Shown here: positions 1 to 22,500 of the stretch, piece by piece
Layout of the letters: each line of letters opens with the position of its first letter
Numbering within the stretch: the stretch's first letter is position 1
Assembly (NCBI RefSeq): GCF_000002985.6
Contig: NC_003282.8
Coordinates: 9,610,001 to 9,674,000 of the forward strand
Length of the DNA stretch: 64,000 nucleotides
Reading direction: 5' to 3'
Source of the DNA: Caenorhabditis elegans
Taxonomy: Eukaryota > Nematoda > Chromadorea > Rhabditida > Rhabditidae
Notes under the pieces: model-generated
Told to the model about the DNA's origin: nothing
The model's database searches: none
What the model saw: only the letters and a program-made list of their open reading frames with translations
Made by a program: the position numbers and the translations under genes

Positions 1-281
1 CTTCTTCTTCTCCAAGGCATGGTCGTAACCGAATGTGAGGAGACGATTGATGAGTTATCGAGAGTCTGACACGTTCATAACAAAAGAGAAGCAAAATGGT
101 TGAAGATGGGCGGTGAGGAGCAATTCATTCACAATAACTTAATCCGTCGACAGATTTTGAGGGGAGGAGCTGATGGGTTCGAGAGGAAGTTGAGAAGGAA
201 ATGAAATTTAGATGGCTTCTGAGCCATCGTGAGCAATTATTTTGATCGTTTCATTTTTTTTGTTGCTTTTGCTTTTTTTCA

Positions 282-4433: not shown

Positions 4434-4505
4434 TTTCACTGTTTTATTCACTGTATTCACTGTGTATTCACTGTATTCACTGTGATTTCACTGTATTCAC
4501 TGTTT
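4434..4505. repeat. Tandem repeat of TATTCACTG-like units
   Basis: About seven imperfect copies of a 9-bp unit (TATTCACTG, with TTTCACTG and GTGTATTCACTG variants) run head to tail. This is a simple minisatellite with no coding potential. Confidence 0.85.
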
Positions 4506-10311: not shown

Positions 10312-11566
10312 TTAGGTTGGTCGAAAAGTCTTTGCAAAATTTTGATTTTTTTTTTGGAAGTAGTATTTTTTCAAAGCGAACAAGATTCAATGGGTAATAT
10401 ATTTACCATTAATTCCTATGACTTCTTGCCAACACAACGGAAGTTGAACAGTACCCTCCGCCTAGAACTCCTGCGATTGGGAGGCAAAGAAGTCGTCCAA
10501 CCCCGTTTCGACGACCTTTCGATCATGAAACTTCTGCCCGGCAAGGTGATTCTGGAGTGAGCGGAACAGATGGTAGTCAGTAGGAGCCAAGCCCGGCGAA
10601 TACGATGGGTAAGATAAAATTTGGATTCCAACTGTCTGGAGCTTCTGGCGGGTCTTAAAAGTTGTATGCGGTCTTGCGTTGTCATGGAGCAGCAACAACT
10701 TTGATCCTCTAGGGCGATGTAATCGATGAGCATGGACCATCTTTTCCAATTAAATGCAGTATAGGCCAGCGTTGATTGTAGCAAAGTCTGGAAGAAGCTC
10801 TCTGGAAATGACACCCTTACTGTCCCGCCCAATTGAGAGAAGCACTTTTTTCCGTGAAGTTCTAATTTGAGGTCAGGTGTCGCGGTTTCCTCGACCGGGA
10901 CCCACTCTTTTTTCCTGGTATGGCTAACATACAATACCCATTTATCATTTCCAGTAATGATATCCTTAACCCAGTCCGTTGTTCGTTTCCTAGTGAGCAG
11001 CGAAAGAGAGAGGTCACAAAACAATTTTTCTGAGAATCGGGCAAATTGTGAGGAACGAGTTGACCGAACTTTTCTACCCTTCCGGTTTCGTGGAGATGGT
11101 TGATGATGGTTTTTTGGGGATGCTTGAGAGTCGCAGAAAGTTCGCGGTTCGTTGCTCTTGGATCATCTTCCAGGGCTCTCGAAATATCCTCGTCGATATT
11201 CAAACGAGAGCGATCTTATCTTGGTTTATCATCGAGATCGTAGTTCTTTTTCGTGAACTTTTCGAACCAAAACTTCATGGTATTGTAGGTGACAGAGTTC
11301 TTGCCTAACACTGCACACATGTTACGACGAGCTTCGTTGCAATTGCAGATTTGGGGGAACTCGTACAGAAAAACCCATCGGAGGGCGTGACGTTCGGCGA
11401 GCAAATTCTCGGTCATTTTGAACAGCACCCAAAAGTTTTTTTTTTAATATATTAAACATGCACATTACGTACTATGCAAATAAAAAAACAGAATCAGAAA
11501 AAAATGAATTAACGCTGAGAAATGAAGAAAAGTACAAATTTTGCAAAGACTTTTCGACCAACCTAA
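10312..11566 (-). mobile_element. mariner-family transposon, degenerate
   Basis: The element is 1255 bp and bounded by near-perfect inverted termini of about 31 bp: TTAGGTTGGTCGAAAAGTCT at the left and its reverse complement ending at 11566. A TA dinucleotide abuts each end (10310-10311 and 11567-11568), the expected mariner target duplication. It carries a broken transposase on the minus strand. Length, termini and TA duplication are all typical of mariner elements. Confidence 0.95.
10387..11416 (-). pseudogene. Broken mariner transposase (DD34D)
   Basis: Minus-strand frames together cover a mariner transposase but are interrupted. The N-terminal helix-turn-helix part starts at 11416 and ends in a stop after DDKPR near 11216. 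The next block (NIDEDISRALEDD) resumes in frame past that stop, then shifts frame near 11030. The catalytic part contains TGNDKW, HDNARPH and LAPTDYH; the last two aspartates are 34 residues apart, the mariner DD34D signature. A further shift near 10750 and a stop after SQEF (10462) complete the damage. The protein cannot be made intact. The well-matched termini could still be mobilised in trans, though nothing here shows that they are. Confidence 0.9.
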
Positions 11567-11993
11567 TAAAATTATTTTGTAAAACTATTGTGTTCGAATT
11601 CATATAATTTTAATTTTTTACTAGGTTTTCTATTAGAAGAGAGGGTCCTTACTTTTTTATTTCAAAAATTACCGAGCCGGGATCCAATTTTTTCCTGCAC
11701 TTAATAGTTTTTAATATTTGTGAAATCTTGAAAAACTTGCCAGGTTGTGTTTTTTTCAAATCAGTAAATAATTGTGAACGCTCCACATTTCATTAAAACC
11801 AATAAATCACTAAAACGTTTAGCACACGAAGCTCCATTTTTTGTGGATTCTCATTGGCTCGGCTAACAGCTGTTGGGGCAGTTTCTCAGTTCTTGCAGTT
11901 GTTGGTGGCAAACAGATTTATTAGTTGAAACGAGAAGAAGAAAAATGATTTGAATATCAATTAATTATTAATGCCTGGAGCTTGGAGTGTTTA

Positions 11994-12366
11994 TCAATGA
12001 GCTGGACGCCGATTTATGGGAAGAAGTGATCGCTTTCCACGAACCATCGGAGTTTGATTCCTTTTGGAGAATGATGAAGTCACTCCACGTATTATAGGAA
12101 GATTATTTCTCCTGTTGATTGAACGGGGATTTCTAAAACCTCCACTGTTCCGCTGTCTTAGGGCTTCATCCAACAGCGATCCTCTGTAAGTATAAAAATC
12201 AAGGATTCACAGTCTTATGATAAATTGAAAAGACGTGTTTTAAAATGGAAGAATTGCATTTTTTTTTCAAAATAACAAACCTTCCAGCTGGACGTCTTCC
12301 ACCAACTCGAACAGCAAAAACATTAGCGAATAAAAAAATAATGCAAAGAATTATTATGAGTTTCAT
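11994..12366 (-). CDS. Small secreted basic peptide precursor A (91 aa)
   Basis: I do not recognise this gene. Two exons, 12366-12281 and 12183-11994, join in phase (AG|A) to give 91 aa. Residues 1-18 (MKLIIILCIIFLFANVFA) are a clear signal peptide. The mature part is very Arg/Asn-rich and is divided by dibasic sites: RR, NRR, SKR, GKR and NRR. NQTPMVR followed by GKR looks like a peptide that would be cut and C-terminally amidated. This organisation resembles a neuropeptide-like prohormone or a cationic antimicrobial precursor; which one cannot be told from sequence. A TATA box (TATATAAG, 12409-12402) lies about 36 bp upstream of the ATG. It is the first of four same-strand secreted-peptide genes between the mariner element and mca-1. 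Confidence 0.7.
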
Positions 12367-12924
12367 TGAAACGAGTCTTGTGATTTCATTTACACAGTTA
12401 TCTTATATACTTTTCCTACTTCCTCTTTACCTAACCTCAACGATAAATGTACTGTTTACTATCACTGTTTGTTCATTTTGAACGTTTTCAAAGATGCGTG
12501 GTGAAATTGTTTTTCAAAGCTTTGTTGTTATTCGTTGATCAATGTATTCGCATACACAAAATGAATTCACAAGGAAAACATTATAAGCATCGAAGCTTCA
12601 TTTTTAACTCATTAAATTTCGATCTGAAATTTTTTCAGTACGTTTTTCATTTCTTTTGAGGTCTATAATAAAATTGGAGAAATTAATGAAAATTACATTT
12701 CATTAGAATATTAGGGCATGTAATACACAAGTACCTAAGATATGTATATCTTGTTCTGGAGTTTAAAATGAAATGAAAATCCTTTCTTTTGAGTAAAGTG
12801 AAAGACTTTTGAAAATAAGTTATTTGTGATGCATGTGAAACATTTAAAATTCGAACAGTTTATTATACTCAAAAAGTTTATAAGTTCGTCATTCCCTTGA
12901 AAGTATATTCAATTCCTCAGCAAC

Positions 12925-13365
12925 TCATTTTCCTGGGATATGGATACTGAAAAATTAATGTATATAATTATTTATCTGTAACATGCGATTTGAATTAAAG
13001 TCAAACATGACTGAACATAAGAAGCATTTAAAAAAAATATATACTGGTTGAGCTCACCAATCAACATTCACCATAATCTCAAACTTTTTAATACTTGATA
13101 TTATAAAAAATTGCTCAAAGTTCAATCTGATAATAATAGAAGTCACTTACTGTCCTTCAAGTTTTCCTCCGAGTTTTATTCCATCAGAAGACGTTCTTGG
13201 TCTTGGTCTTGGTATTGGCCTTGGCTTTGGCTTCTGAATTCATCATAAGAAGTAATTGCTTCAAAAACTACCTACTTTCCCTCCACCACTAGACTTTCCT
13301 TTTGCAGTAGTTACATCAGCTACTACAAGTAAAATGAAGAAGAACAAAATCCAATTGAGCTTCAT
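12925..13365 (-). CDS. Small secreted Pro/Arg-rich peptide precursor B (64 aa)
   Basis: Unrecognised. Exons 13365-13276, 13233-13151 and 12946-12925 join in frame to give 64 aa. MKLNWILFFFILLVVADVTT is a signal peptide ending near residue 21. The mature part begins KGKSSGGGK, continues with an alternating Pro/Arg/Lys tract (PKPRPIPRPRPR), then GIKLGGKLEG, and ends HIPGK. Pro/Arg alternation is typical of proline-rich antimicrobial peptides; a terminal Gly-Lys also suits amidation after Lys removal. If the last donor (CA|GTAAGT, 13150) is not used, the frame stops at once after GQ, giving 58 aa. I prefer the three-exon form because the acceptor TTTTTCAG at 12947 is strong and the ending matches neighbour C. 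A TATA box (TATATAAA) lies about 40-50 bp upstream of the ATG. Confidence 0.65.
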
Positions 13366-14034
13366 TTCAGATTTCGTATCCGTGGTTTTGGAAAATCCTG
13401 TCATTTATATATTTTGTTGACTTCCTTGTTTACCACTTATCCTATCACGGCCAATTGTTGTTTGTTGTACGGAAAAATAAATACGAGTTATCATATGGGA
13501 GTGGATGTTTATGGATCAAACTATATTTTTTGACGTTGTCTTTAAAAAACCAATAACTGCTGTATTTTTCAAATAATTATTGTTGAGATATCATATTTGC
13601 TCATTACCAAAAATAAAGCAAAAATCAACGAGAAATAATCATTAAATTAATTAATATCACTGATCCTACATCTGTAGGCCCATACCGTACATTTTATCGG
13701 TGATTTTGATGTTTTTAAGTTTAATTCACTCGAAATGAAACGGTTTACCAAAATTCCCACTAAAGAAGAAATACGGTATGTAACAACAATCCACTTCAAT
13801 TTTGTTCTCAATTTTATCTCAAATCTTTTTTATCTTCAAAGTTCATCATATTTATTGAATGTTTGTTATGTTCTTAGTTTCTGGAAATACCTTGGTTTTA
13901 TAACAACCACAACTCTGATACAAACATCTTTTATTTAAAAAAAAAGAATAAACTATTTATTAGTGAAATTAGAAATTCACTTAAAACCATATAACCCCAG
14001 AAATATTCAATTAATTTCAATTTTCGATCGCTCG

Positions 14035-14367
14035 TCATTTGCCGCCAGGACGAACAGCCCATGGTTTATTTGTTGTTCTGTAACCATTGTTACCGTGATA
14101 AGCACGAGGAGGACGGTTATGACTGAAATATTCTTATATCTTGGTGCAAAAAAATCTTCAGAAAGTTACATTTGACTTTTAAAGTCATCTGGTCGTTTTG
14201 CCTTGTTTCGTCGATTGAACTTCTGCTATTTTAATGAATAAATTTCAAAGTTGATATCATGAACAAACCTTTTTACCAAGAATTTCATTTGTTTTCTCAG
14301 ACTCCGCAGTTGCTAGGTCTAAAAGAATTAGAGCAAAAAAAAGAATGATTGAATAATGGATCTTCAT
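14035..14367 (-). CDS. Small secreted basic peptide precursor C (79 aa)
   Basis: Unrecognised. Exons 14367-14269, 14222-14170 and 14122-14035 give 79 aa. The signal peptide is MKIHYSIILFFALILLDLAT (cleavage near residue 21). The mature chain is basic, with KKKFNRR and KAKR, then HNRPPRAYHG and the ending KPWAVRPGGK. Dibasic sites and a terminal GGK fit a processed, possibly amidated peptide. Exon number, first-exon length, splice phases (0 then 2) and the PG(G)K ending match gene B, so the two are probably old duplicates. The last donor (AT|GTAACT) is weak; a GTCAAA donor 5 nt earlier is the alternative. TATAAA lies at 14426-14421, about 55 bp before the ATG. Confidence 0.65.
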
Positions 14368-14712
14368 GTTTTTTGGAGGAAACAACTATTTTGAAGTTTA
14401 CCCAGTACAGCTGATCACATTTTATAGTAGTCTTGAGCAAACTTCCTTATTTATTTTTTGCGGAGAAAAGGTGTTTAGCCGTTCATTTTTGTTTATTCGG
14501 ATACTTCACGAATCAAACAGTCATTTAAATCAGATGAAAAGCTTCAGACAACAATTATGTCAGCCGATTAGAGGCTGCTTGGCAGATTGGTGTAAATAAA
14601 CAAGAGTGGAAAGTAGTGTTATGTTCTCAATTTCAAATTGTTTTCAATATATTTTTTTCAGTTTGTAATCCGTAAATTCATAAAAAAATGTATTAAATGA
14701 AAAAATAAATAA

Positions 14713-15074
14713 TTACAACATGCAGTAAATGCACTTAATAATATTCCCATTTTCGTGAAAAACGAACTCGCTCTCCAGGTCATTTACAAATGTTGGTGGA
14801 TTAGTTTTTGAAAGAAAACTGGCACGTGGGTATCTGCTTCTGAAATTCAGGTTTTTGATAGAAGCTAAAGTTAAATTATATTATAAACATTAATATTAAA
14901 AAATGGAGAGTTTATAACAGTATTTCTTAGTTCCAATAGACCTTACTTTATTTTTTCAGTTATGAAGTTTCTTGCGCGATTTGCTTCATTTTTATCAGGG
15001 ACTTGCACAGGATCCAAGAATCCGAAACTCATCGCAATAAGGCAACATAAGACAAGAAAACATTGTGCATTCAT
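14713..15074 (-). CDS. Small secreted protein D (84 aa)
   Basis: Unrecognised. Exons 15074-14947 and 14839-14713 join as AA|A to give 84 aa. MNAQCFLVLCCLIAMSFG is a signal peptide. The mature part holds DPVQVPDKNEANRARNF, a basic KSRYPRASFLSKTN stretch, and an acidic segment (NDLESEFVFHENG) before a terminal CIYCML. It is less basic than its neighbours A-C and has two C-terminal cysteines, so it may be a different class that merely shares the location. The donor is A|GTAAGG and the acceptor TTTCAG at 14840. TATAAAA (15118-15112) lies about 40 bp upstream of the ATG, the same layout as genes A-C. Confidence 0.6.
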
Positions 15075-16522
15075 ACTGATAAAAATACTTATGGTAAAAA
15101 CTATCGTGTCATTTTATACTGAAGCGTCCCGTAGCAAGTGGAAATAATTGTGTTTATTTATTTTGATGTTAAGTTTGAAGGAGCATCTAATGGTATGCTG
15201 CGGTCGTAGAAAAAACTTATAGCAAAAGTCATTCATCCTTGTTTGTAAAGGTTCACTTGAGATTTTGTTGAAATTTCTCAAATTTATCCCTTTTCAAAAC
15301 ATTGTTATCACGGTTTGACCATGTTTCTATAAATACTTGTCACCTTGTAGTACTATTTTTAATTGATTCAAAACACTACAAACTTCCTCAATCTCTTGTT
15401 TATTTGCTCTCCTATTTACTTTTTTGTCTTATTTTGACAGGATAGATCAAATATCTATCAAACGGTAAAAAGTGGTAATACAGATAAACACTTATATCTT
15501 TTGAAATATATTTTAATTGAAAGAGGAAGTGACTTCAATAAGGAAGATGCTAAAAATTTTGCTGACGAAAACAAGCTTTCATGTTCTTATTCAATTGAAA
15601 TATGTATTTTAAATTTTGAATTCGTGATTTTTCCGGTCGTAATTTCCCCATTCTACTTTTCCCAAAAATATAACTATGAAAAATTTCGATTAAATTTTTA
15701 ACATGCAAATCGTATAGTGCTTAACTTTTGTTTTTGAATGCATTATATGTACGAATGTATAGTATTAATGTTGAAATGACAAAACCTTTTAGTGCTCATT
15801 TGCATAAGCTTGAAATATAATGTTGCATGCTTTAATTTTTATGGAATTGATTGTTATTTATCATTGACTGTATAATATGTGTAGACTTTCCTCAAAGTGT
15901 GAACAAAAATCAATTGAATTCATTTTATTTTCGCCTGTTGTTCATGGGGTATATATACCCTATACGTCATTTTTTCATAAGTTTGAGTGAGTGTGAGAGA
16001 GCAGAGACACAGAGAGATAAATTATACAACTGTGGTCACGAGAGAGAGAAAGTGAAAATGTCTGAAAGTTAAGAAAAAGCGGGGGGTAATTAGAGTGGAA
16101 ATGAAAGAGGAGCTGCACCTTTAGCTGAAGCGCTAAATGTTTTGCAAGAAAATTGATGGGGGCTCATCGAAACGATAAAGTTTTACTTTTAGATGCTATA
16201 ACAACAAAAAATGAAAACGCATTCGAATATATAAACAATGGAATATGAGACAAATAGCTTCTACGATTTTCCATCCAGTTATCAAAAAACCGGATAGAAG
16301 ACCCAGAGAAAAACATTTGGAGGATATGTTTGGTCATGTTTCTACACGCTTTTACACACATTTTACAGCACAATTTGAGGGAGAAATGTTTTCTGTTTCA
16401 GTATTAAGAAAAGTTTTAAAGTGATGGGGGTGGAGATATAGGTTAGAAGCTGACGAGCGGGAGCCAATGAAAGCATCTAGAGGTGGATGATAATGATGAT
16501 GTCTACAAAACTACGAGGTAAT
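15075..16522. other. Gap between peptide cluster and mca-1 3' end
   Basis: No gene that I can support. A plus-strand open frame at about 15439-15700 follows a TTTTGACAG acceptor and reads KHLYLLKYILIERGSDFNKE, faintly ankyrin-like, but has no start exon. A purine-rich GAGAGA tract lies at 15985-16060. The right end includes the mca-1 3' UTR. Confidence 0.5.
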
Positions 16523-19500: not shown

Positions 19501-22500
19501 CAATAATGAAGAACTTGACGAACATTTGAATATCGACCAGTGAGAACTCGTTCTTTTCAAAAACATAGTGGTCAAGACAGAATCGAGTGACCAAGACGAT
19601 AAGTGCAATGATGGCAATTGTAGTTCCACAATAGATGATTTGAAGGGCCAACTTGGAAAGTTTAGCTTGCAGAACTGATTTGGCTGTCAAGTCGTCATCG
19701 CCAGATTTTGAGCTGTCAGAGCTTCCGTTAGACGAACTTCCGGATGAACTAGATGATGAAGAAGAACTTGAAGATGTTGATGTAGAGTCATCATCTCCGA
19801 TTCCAGCTTTTCCAGCCCCGAGAAGAGTCATGATAATACCAGTTTGTGAGTTGACTCCTACGGCAGTGATGAGCATTTTTCCGGAACCTTCCATAGCATA
19901 TGTTCCCGAAAGGAGAACTGGATCGGATTCAATGCTCTTTTTGATGTGATCTGATTCTCCAGTGAGGGATGATTCATCGATCTGAAAATATTTTTGATGA
20001 AGTTCAAGTTTTTTTATGAACTTAAAAACTACTAACCTTCAAATCATTACTCTGAATCAAAAATCCATCGGCAGGAAGAAGATCACCATATTTGACACGT
20101 GCAATGTCACCGACTACCAGATCAGAGACGGGGACATCAATAGCCTCCCCATTACGAATAACAGAGAACTTTTGGCCAGTTTCAATCTTTTCCTGAAATT
20201 TAAATATTTATAACTTTAAAAGAGTCAGCAACAAACCTGCAAACTTCTAAACTGTCGTTCTTTCGAATAATCGTTGACAGCGGTGACCAGCACGACGACA
20301 ATAACACAGAGAAGAATAGCAACTCCTTCAATCCATGCAGTTCCATGACCTTCAGATGGTGCTTCGGTGGTTGACATAAAGGTTCCATTGGCAAGAATTG
20401 CCGCCGTCGTCGCGTTGACAAGGTGTTGAGTTGCGTCTTCGGCCGCCGATGTCGGTTCGTAGAATGATAGAGCTAAATTGATGAAGCCGGAAAGTACCAG
20501 GATAACAAGAGTCGGGTCCTGAAATAAATAAAAATAATTTAATCACATTAGCTTCACTATGTATTTTCAATTGTTTAAAAATTAAATTTATGATCTGATT
20601 CTCTAAAACAAACCTTGCATGCATCCAAAACGAGCCGCACGAATCCTTTACTTTTGGCTGGTGGAATAGTATTGGCTCCGTAGACATGTCGTCGTCGATC
20701 GAGATCTGCTTGTTCACCATTGAGACCAACCAACGAGTCAGTCTTCAATTTCTTGCACAATCCCTCGACGCCTTCGTGTTCTGTGGACAGCTGAAATTTT
20801 GAAGTTTTATTGAAGTTTGAGGTCAGTTTTTGTTTCTTGTTTCTTTCTCAACATCATCAGCTGATTATTACACAATCTGTTTATCATTATACATATCATT
20901 TCAAATAAGAAGTTTATAGGTCACTCGAAACTTTCCAGCCAATTCTTTTCATTGTTTCATCCTCTTAAAGGCCACAGCCAACTTGATTTTTATTGCATTG
21001 TATCAGTTGGTCAGCCGGTGGGAAAATAATAAATATTGAGAAAAAATGGATGAAAAAAATGAAAAAGAGGCACGAGAGATAAAGTGTCACAAATCAGAAT
21101 GACGTGTGTAGACTGTTAAAGAACAAATTAACAAATTTCTGGTAGGAGATGTCAGAATGAACTTTCGATTTGAAATAGTGTATTTCGATATCAAATTAGA
21201 TTGTTTTGTATATAAATATTATGAAAATCAAAACACTAACCCGAACTATCGCCTCAGCTCCGCGAGCCTCCATGAGTCCGCGAAGGTCGCCAAGACTGCA
21301 GCCAAATTCTTTTGCATCCTGAAAAATATAGTTGTATGAAGGGAACAAGATGTGTTAAAAGCAATTTTAGTTCTTTGTGGATATTCAAAACATTAAATGA
21401 TCTTAACTATTTCAAGTTTGACCTAAACCAATCTCTAGTTTTAAAACTAATTAGAACTGTGAAACGGAAGATTTTGATTGAAGAGTTAAATTATCTTATC
21501 CTCCAAATTTTGATTCAAAAAATACTGTTTCAATCTATAAATGAATCAAACCTTTTTGCCATTTTCGCCTTTCGGCTCACGCTTCCAAAAGTAGACAATA
21601 AGACGTCCAATAAAACAAACAACTAGAATTATAGCAATAATTGGCATTATATTTGTCACAACTATAAGACCCGCTAAAAATCAATGGATAGAAACATAGA
21701 CGCATTTGAGAAATAATGATGTGACCGTGATTCAGTAGGTTACTTCCAAAATGAACAAAGTTTTCGCCTAACAGACGGTCAGAGAAAACACACGGGACAG
21801 ACAGTTGGTCAGTTTCTCATAATAAAGGTCATGCGGATATTTCTAATTTCTTTGAAATTTGCGCGTTCTCCTTATTTTGTTTTTTGAGTTCACTTAAATT
21901 CGTCATTGTTTATTTTTTTCGAGATAACGACGGTGTTATTTGAAAGATCAAATTTTCACTGATGTTTGAAATCGTTTGATAAAGCTAAAAATAGAAGTTT
22001 GTTAAAATTTCAGTTACCTCATCGTAGGTATGACCTCTTCTCAATCTCATCAGTTTCCTTTCTGGATTTTCCACTTATTTGGGAAACTTGTGCAGGAGTA
22101 GGAAGCAGAACCTTTGATTAAAAACTATGAAAAACGGATATTAAATAAAAACGGAAGAAACTGGGATCACCGGAAAATTATGAAAGAAGAGATGTGTTCA
22201 ACAAACTTTTAAACAAACTTTTTCCAATAGATAAAAATAAAATTTAGTAGATCATACTCATGGAGATCACGTTGTTCAAGCAACGGACGCAATGATTAGA
22301 CTAAAGAACGATGAAAGGTTCAAAAAAGTCATACGGTTCAAGAGAAAAGATCAAAAGTTAGGCTAGATTCAAAAGTGACGTATGGAACTAGTTGATCTTA
22401 AAAATAAAACTTTCTCGCTAGAAAATGTATTACTAATCGGGTTTATTGAATAATAACCTAAGAGATTCGACTAGTATTATAGAAAGCAGATAAAGGTGAA

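Follow-up and report, generated by a model that had tools for sequence, protein, structure and literature searches.

Four short genes, here called A to D, were found side by side on the minus strand of the Caenorhabditis elegans DNA analyzed and, judging from the DNA, all four look like real small genes, each apparently for a short secreted protein. An earlier sequence-only reading had proposed such a cluster, and the proposal was upheld by the gene models, all of which closed, by a spliced-frame search that returned four loci against a null mean of 0.005, by a TATA box at 4/4 starts, and by the coding scores. The exons and introns, the rule-based signal peptides, the charge and the TATA boxes could be read directly from the letters. 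As to function, the explanation that we rank first, at somewhat less than an even chance, is that A-C are secreted cationic defence effectors and that D, though adjacent, is of a different type.

Gene models and genomic setting

The window, meaning the whole 64-kb stretch analyzed (bases 9,610,001-9,674,000), lies on a contig that we take to be C. elegans chromosome IV. It carries a plus-strand GATA-finger gene (Pfam GATA, E = 5.8e-18), presumably elt-1 (W09C2.1), and minus-strand reading frames of a P-type Ca2+-ATPase, named by eye rather than by a family search and presumably belonging to mca-1 (W09C2.3). Genes A-D are situated in the gap between these two, downstream of mca-1 and on the same strand as mca-1 (Table 1). 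The names elt-1 and mca-1 stand in print under the W09C2 prefix in excerpts of PMC6381180, PMC1175957 and PMC3048360. In literature searches of main texts, the prefix occurred only for elt-1 or mca-1 and there was no mention of W09C2.2 or W09C2.4 to W09C2.8, while a search by topic gave no title on A-D among the matches listed. Our guess from the flanks is that A-D bear W09C2 names; given how thoroughly C. elegans has been annotated, they have probably been predicted as genes before.

Rebuilding the models from the sequence exactly reproduced the limits and lengths that had been claimed, with GT..AG ends in 6/6 introns (A 97 nt; B 42 and 204 nt; C 46 and 47 nt; D 107 nt) and closing frames in 4/4 genes; the many short exons were found as well, 7 of the 10 being under 100 nt. 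Splice scores, calculated with splice-site matrices, were at least 3.1 except in C, whose first acceptor scored -0.29 and second donor 0.93, and a two-exon rival form of C had better splice scores and a weaker coding score than the three-exon form. Signal peptides, also part of the original claim, were borne out on all four proteins by a simple rule (hydrophobic stretch plus -3/-1) rather than by a trained predictor. For the calculation of charge, the signal-peptide ends were set by eye at residues 18, 21, 21 and 18 (A-D), the rule itself cutting at 14, 16, 21 and 14. The mature part of A (73 aa) contains 22% Arg and five dibasic runs including a GKR; B has a Pro/Arg-rich stretch with the PRP motif three times and ends in ..IPGK; C is basic and ends in ..VRPGGK; and D, with its signal peptide by rule, is near-neutral, has no dibasic site and ends in CIYCML.

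Table 1. Positions in the window of genes A-D and of the signals flanking them
Feature	Position	Strand	Exons or elements	Remarks
Gene A	11994..12366	-	12366-12281, 12183-11994	91 aa, 2 exons
Gene B	12925..13365	-	13365-13276, 13233-13151, 12946-12925	64 aa, 3 exons
Gene C	14035..14367	-	14367-14269, 14222-14170, 14122-14035	79 aa, 3 exons
Gene D	14713..15074	-	15074-14947, 14839-14713	84 aa, 2 exons
Promoter of A	12403..12424	-	AGGAAGT, 8 nt, TATATAA	TATA at -43
Promoter of B	13405..13426	-	AGGAAGT, 8 nt, TATATAA	TATA at -46
Promoter of C	14420..14447	-	AGGAAGT from 14447, TATAAAA	TATA at -59
TATA box of D	15112..15118	-	TATAAAA	at -44
AATAAA after A	11917..11922	-	AATAAA	72 nt past stop codon
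AATAAA after B	12859..12864	-	AATAAA	61 nt past stop codon
AATAAA after C	13956..13961	-	AATAAA	74 nt past stop codon

Several repeated elements were noted in and around the same gap. Genes A-D adjoin the remnant of a mariner-like transposon at 10,312-11,566 (Pfam HTH_48, E = 2.1e-13), which has TTAGGTTGGTCGAAAAGTCTTTGCAAAAT at each end in opposite orientation and a minus-strand transposase split into several frames, the first of which carries a Mos1-type HTH domain. Between A and B, a repeated element at 12,666-12,749 was the source of 46/47 genome matches of the DNA of the A-D locus; its copies are 82-94% identical, their number being a lower bound, and some have an inverted partner 100-200 bases off, like a small inverted-repeat transposon. 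Upstream of the GATA-factor gene, units resembling CTGTATTCA form a short tandem array at 4,440-4,505. Rfam and tRNA scans of the 64-kb window gave 0 matches.

Spliced frames and coding scores against chance

We assessed how often such genes arise by chance with a rule-based finder, which requires a hydrophobic stretch plus the -3/-1 rule, scores splice sites by the same matrices, and accepts products of 50-130 aa with 1-2 introns. On 11,500-16,500 it returned four minus-strand loci at the exact starts of A-D, with C in the two-exon form, and 0 loci on the plus strand; a strict version of the rule kept 3/4. Applied to all 64 kb, the finder gave five loci by the loose rule, namely A-D and a start at 19,525, and four by the strict rule, namely A, B, D and a start at 20,346, C being lost; both additional starts lie inside the ATPase gene and are presumably false. 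Composition-matched order-3 Markov sequences, drawn in 400 trials of 5 kb each, yielded 2 loci by the loose rule (mean 0.005) and 0 by the strict rule. As a genomic control, 20 stretches of 10 kb were searched on both strands by the loose rule and gave 4 loci per 200 kb, none of the four having a TATA box in place; at this rate the Poisson chance of at least four loci in 3.1 kb is 6e-7, although all these chance figures flatter the result because the finder thresholds were fixed after the scores of A-D were known. One of these control loci, a spliced secreted frame at 9,682,421 (minus strand) on the window's contig, looks like an insulin-like peptide gene, and the remaining ones look like other kinds of frames.

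Coding potential was scored against local non-coding DNA, the genes on either side supplying 1080 codons for training. The observed score was reached by 13/2000 null draws for A, 0/2000 for B, 4/2000 for C (45/2000 for its two-exon rival) and 66/2000 for D, which is the weakest coding call of the four. The true frame scored highest in B, C and D. In A, one shifted frame (-17.6) and one antisense frame (-8.2) exceeded the true frame (-19.7), and the coding score is therefore not frame-specific there.

Promoters and gene ends

A TATAWAR match starts 43-59 nt before the ATG in all four genes, at positions where the motif is rare in the background: among the remaining ATGs, it was present between -65 and -35 at 34/2284 in the window as a whole and at 6/239 in 9.7-16.4 kb (1.5-2.5%). 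Since each start has a TATA box of its own, A-D look like four separate genes, each with its own promoter, and each would have a short leader. In B, an upstream ATG that would extend the frame comes right after the TATA box. Past the stop codons, AATAAA was found at 61-74 nt in A-C, a hexamer present in 31% of random non-coding 150-nt stretches; D has none inside 150 nt of its stop codon, the first one being at 216 nt.

These signals bear on the possibility that the frames of A-D opened by chance or belong to dead genes, which we consider very improbable. The short exons, the lack of any relative found, the weak splice sites of C, and the lowest coding score together with the missing nearby AATAAA in D would all suit such an origin; against it stand the TATA box, the rule-based signal peptide and the closing splice phases in 4/4, the AATAAA downstream of A-C, and the finder null with its mean of 0.005.

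In each of A-C, the heptamer AGGAAGT lies ahead of the TATA box. The upstream regions of A and B have in common GGTAAA..AGGAAGT-N8-TATATAA, a likeness reached by 3/1000 resamplings, and only this pair stands out of the six, the other five being reached by 26 to 441/1000. When TATA boxes were planted in the null, the A-B likeness was reached by 45/2000 and that of the other pairs by 92 to 1142/2000. At -85 to -50, AGGAAGT occurs at 10/2288 ATGs, those of A-C among them. Any 7-mer common to three of four upstream regions was, however, obtained in 564/3879 random sets (521/3368 with intergenic ATGs only), and since random sets so often share some 7-mer, the sharing of AGGAAGT alone is not significant and gives only a hint of common regulation of A-C. 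Similarity downstream of the genes was reached by 44/1000 for A-C and by 227-970/1000 for the other five pairs, and we claim no relation from it.

The arrangement AGGAAGT-N6..15-TATATAA was also considered as a genome-wide signature of a gene set and was rejected: it has 12 genome matches, of which only A and B have a signal-peptide frame within 120 nt downstream (2/12), the reversed pattern gives 40 matches, which means no enrichment of the element, and the scan led to no larger set of genes. A fourth minus-strand AGGAAGT lies at 15,388, 314 nt upstream of the D start; between it and D the finder gave no signal-peptide gene.

Relations among the genes and to other sequences

B and C had been regarded as probable duplicates. 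Their introns are in phases 0 and 2 in both genes, Lys codons flank the first junction in both, both proteins terminate in Gly-Lys, and their full-length similarity was reached by only 2/1000 shuffles. The similarity of the mature parts was reached by 534/1000, i.e., it is no better than shuffled, and the sequence similarity of B and C lies in the signal peptide. The claim was thus sustained as to intron phases and signal peptides, but not as to the mature parts, which have no alignment. Among the other mature pairs, A with D was reached by 7/1000 shuffles and C with D by 25/1000; since 12 comparisons were made, neither similarity is claimed.

In protein searches of the own genome, A, C and D matched only themselves; B had one other match, on another chromosome at E = 3.6, and B and C did not match each other. 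Pfam gave nothing above cut-off for A-D (the sole hit, with A, had E = 0.17 and 12.2 bits vs a cut-off of 25), and a search of the PDB by sequence with B and C only returned best E-values of 2 and 2.1. The lack of a genome relative at this search sensitivity and of a family match would also be expected if A-D were other fast-evolving secreted proteins, of seminal fluid, gland, cuticle or extracellular matrix, having no antimicrobial or receptor function. The basic charge would then serve binding to acidic surfaces, and the CCAARR-like hexamers that encode the Pro-Arg stretch of B, which starts after a KK, would likewise fit; against this, there is no positive evidence for any of the named sites, and we consider such an identity rather unlikely.

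Peptide properties and known peptide classes

The strongly basic mature regions that had been described for A-C were confirmed, the net charge (K+R-D-E) being +16, +10 and +11, respectively, vs +1 for mature D. The idea of a cluster of effector-like genes held in part: four genes are clustered and A-C are basic, but D lacks the charge, the dibasic sites and the C-terminal Gly-Lys, so that a cluster of four alike genes was not obtained. Speaking against a defence role, hydrophobic residues are scarce in mature A-C (27, 14 and 17%), and many membrane-active peptides are richer in them.

A resemblance to nlp/cnc-type clusters, minus their Gly/Tyr repeats, had also been suggested, and both halves of the suggestion fit. 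According to excerpts of PMC2453101, genes for the putatively secreted nlp-29/cnc antimicrobial peptides of C. elegans form small genomic clusters, and the family is rich in glycine and tyrosine. A-D are like them in having a signal peptide (by the simple rule), a short protein and side-by-side genes, as far as these excerpts describe the family; unlike them, they are not Gly/Tyr-rich, with Gly+Tyr at 11, 21, 12 and 5% and Tyr residues numbering 0, 0, 2 and 2 (A-D), and they have no sequence relation to nlp-27..34 in the own-genome searches.

B was also compared with proline-rich antimicrobial peptides, which by the definition in excerpts of Welch et al. (2020; PMC7736402) contain at least 25% proline; further criteria applied were a net charge of +1 or more and the PRP motif, which is indicative, and the class is antimicrobial with DnaK or the 70S ribosome as target. 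B resembles these peptides in its charge of +10 and in the three PRP motifs within PKPRPIPRPRPR, but it falls short of the proline threshold as excerpted, with 7/43 residues (16%) in the whole mature part and 21% after the KK; only the first 19 residues after the KK reach 32%.

Another rival explanation is that A-C are hormone-like or neuropeptide-like precursors, which would be cut by EGL-3-type convertases and amidated to act on the worm's own receptors, with NQTPMVR-amide (A) and C-terminally amidated peptides (B and C) as example products. In agreement with this, A, B and C have 5, 1 and 3 dibasic runs, a G-KR is present in A, and B and C end in G-K. Gly-basic sites gave p values of 0.076, 0.146 and 0.050 for A, B and C. 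On the other side, a terminal Gly-Lys/Arg also turns up in 7.8% of the shuffled versions of B and in 3.0% of those of C, composition alone accounts for the number of dibasic runs (p = 0.13, 0.99 and 0.73 vs shuffles), and the cut products of A, B and C contain no repeated peptide and no common motif, as would be looked for in neuropeptide precursors. Moreover, NQTPMVR, PWAVRPG, WAVRPG and KPWAVRP had 0 occurrences among the literature matches listed, and a term search found none of six peptide fragments in the main text of a paper on nematode NLPs (PMC8764417). The C-terminus of C, ..VRPGGK with its amidation-type Gly-Lys, is reminiscent of the RPamide neuropeptides NLP-2/22/23, but standard processing would give RPG-amide and C matches only itself in the genome. 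The motif of the NLP-2/22/23 RPamides is GFRP-amide. Taken on both sides, a hormone-like role of A-C seems to us unlikely, about as much so as the other secreted functions above.

Proposed function and implications

In the explanation that we rank first, A-D would be genuine genes, each with a promoter of its own and each encoding a short secreted protein. After removal of the signal peptide, A-C might be trimmed at KK, RR or KR, and B and C may in addition be amidated at the C-terminal Gly; once freed from the cell, A-C would attach to negatively charged surfaces of microbes and so act in defence. B and C, perhaps together with A, could go back to old tandem duplications, after which the mature parts diverged past recognition while the signal peptide, the intron phases and perhaps the promoter stayed alike, and D would be a neighbour of a different kind. 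We infer the processing, the amidation, the site of secretion, the antimicrobial action and the duplication alike. A bolder form of this explanation, in which A-C are cationic secreted effectors restricted to the C. elegans lineage and outside the Gly/Tyr families, with layout and promoter kept and mature peptides diverged, and in which B has a nematode proline-arginine antimicrobial domain, appears to us improbable, more so than either a hormone-like or another secreted role.

If A-C are defence peptides, the effector set of the worm would be wider than the Gly/Tyr-rich peptides, and the locus would offer, within a compact 3 kb of a model animal, a place in which to follow the origin and divergence of orphan secreted peptides. 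If they are not, A-D would be four further small secreted genes of unassigned role.
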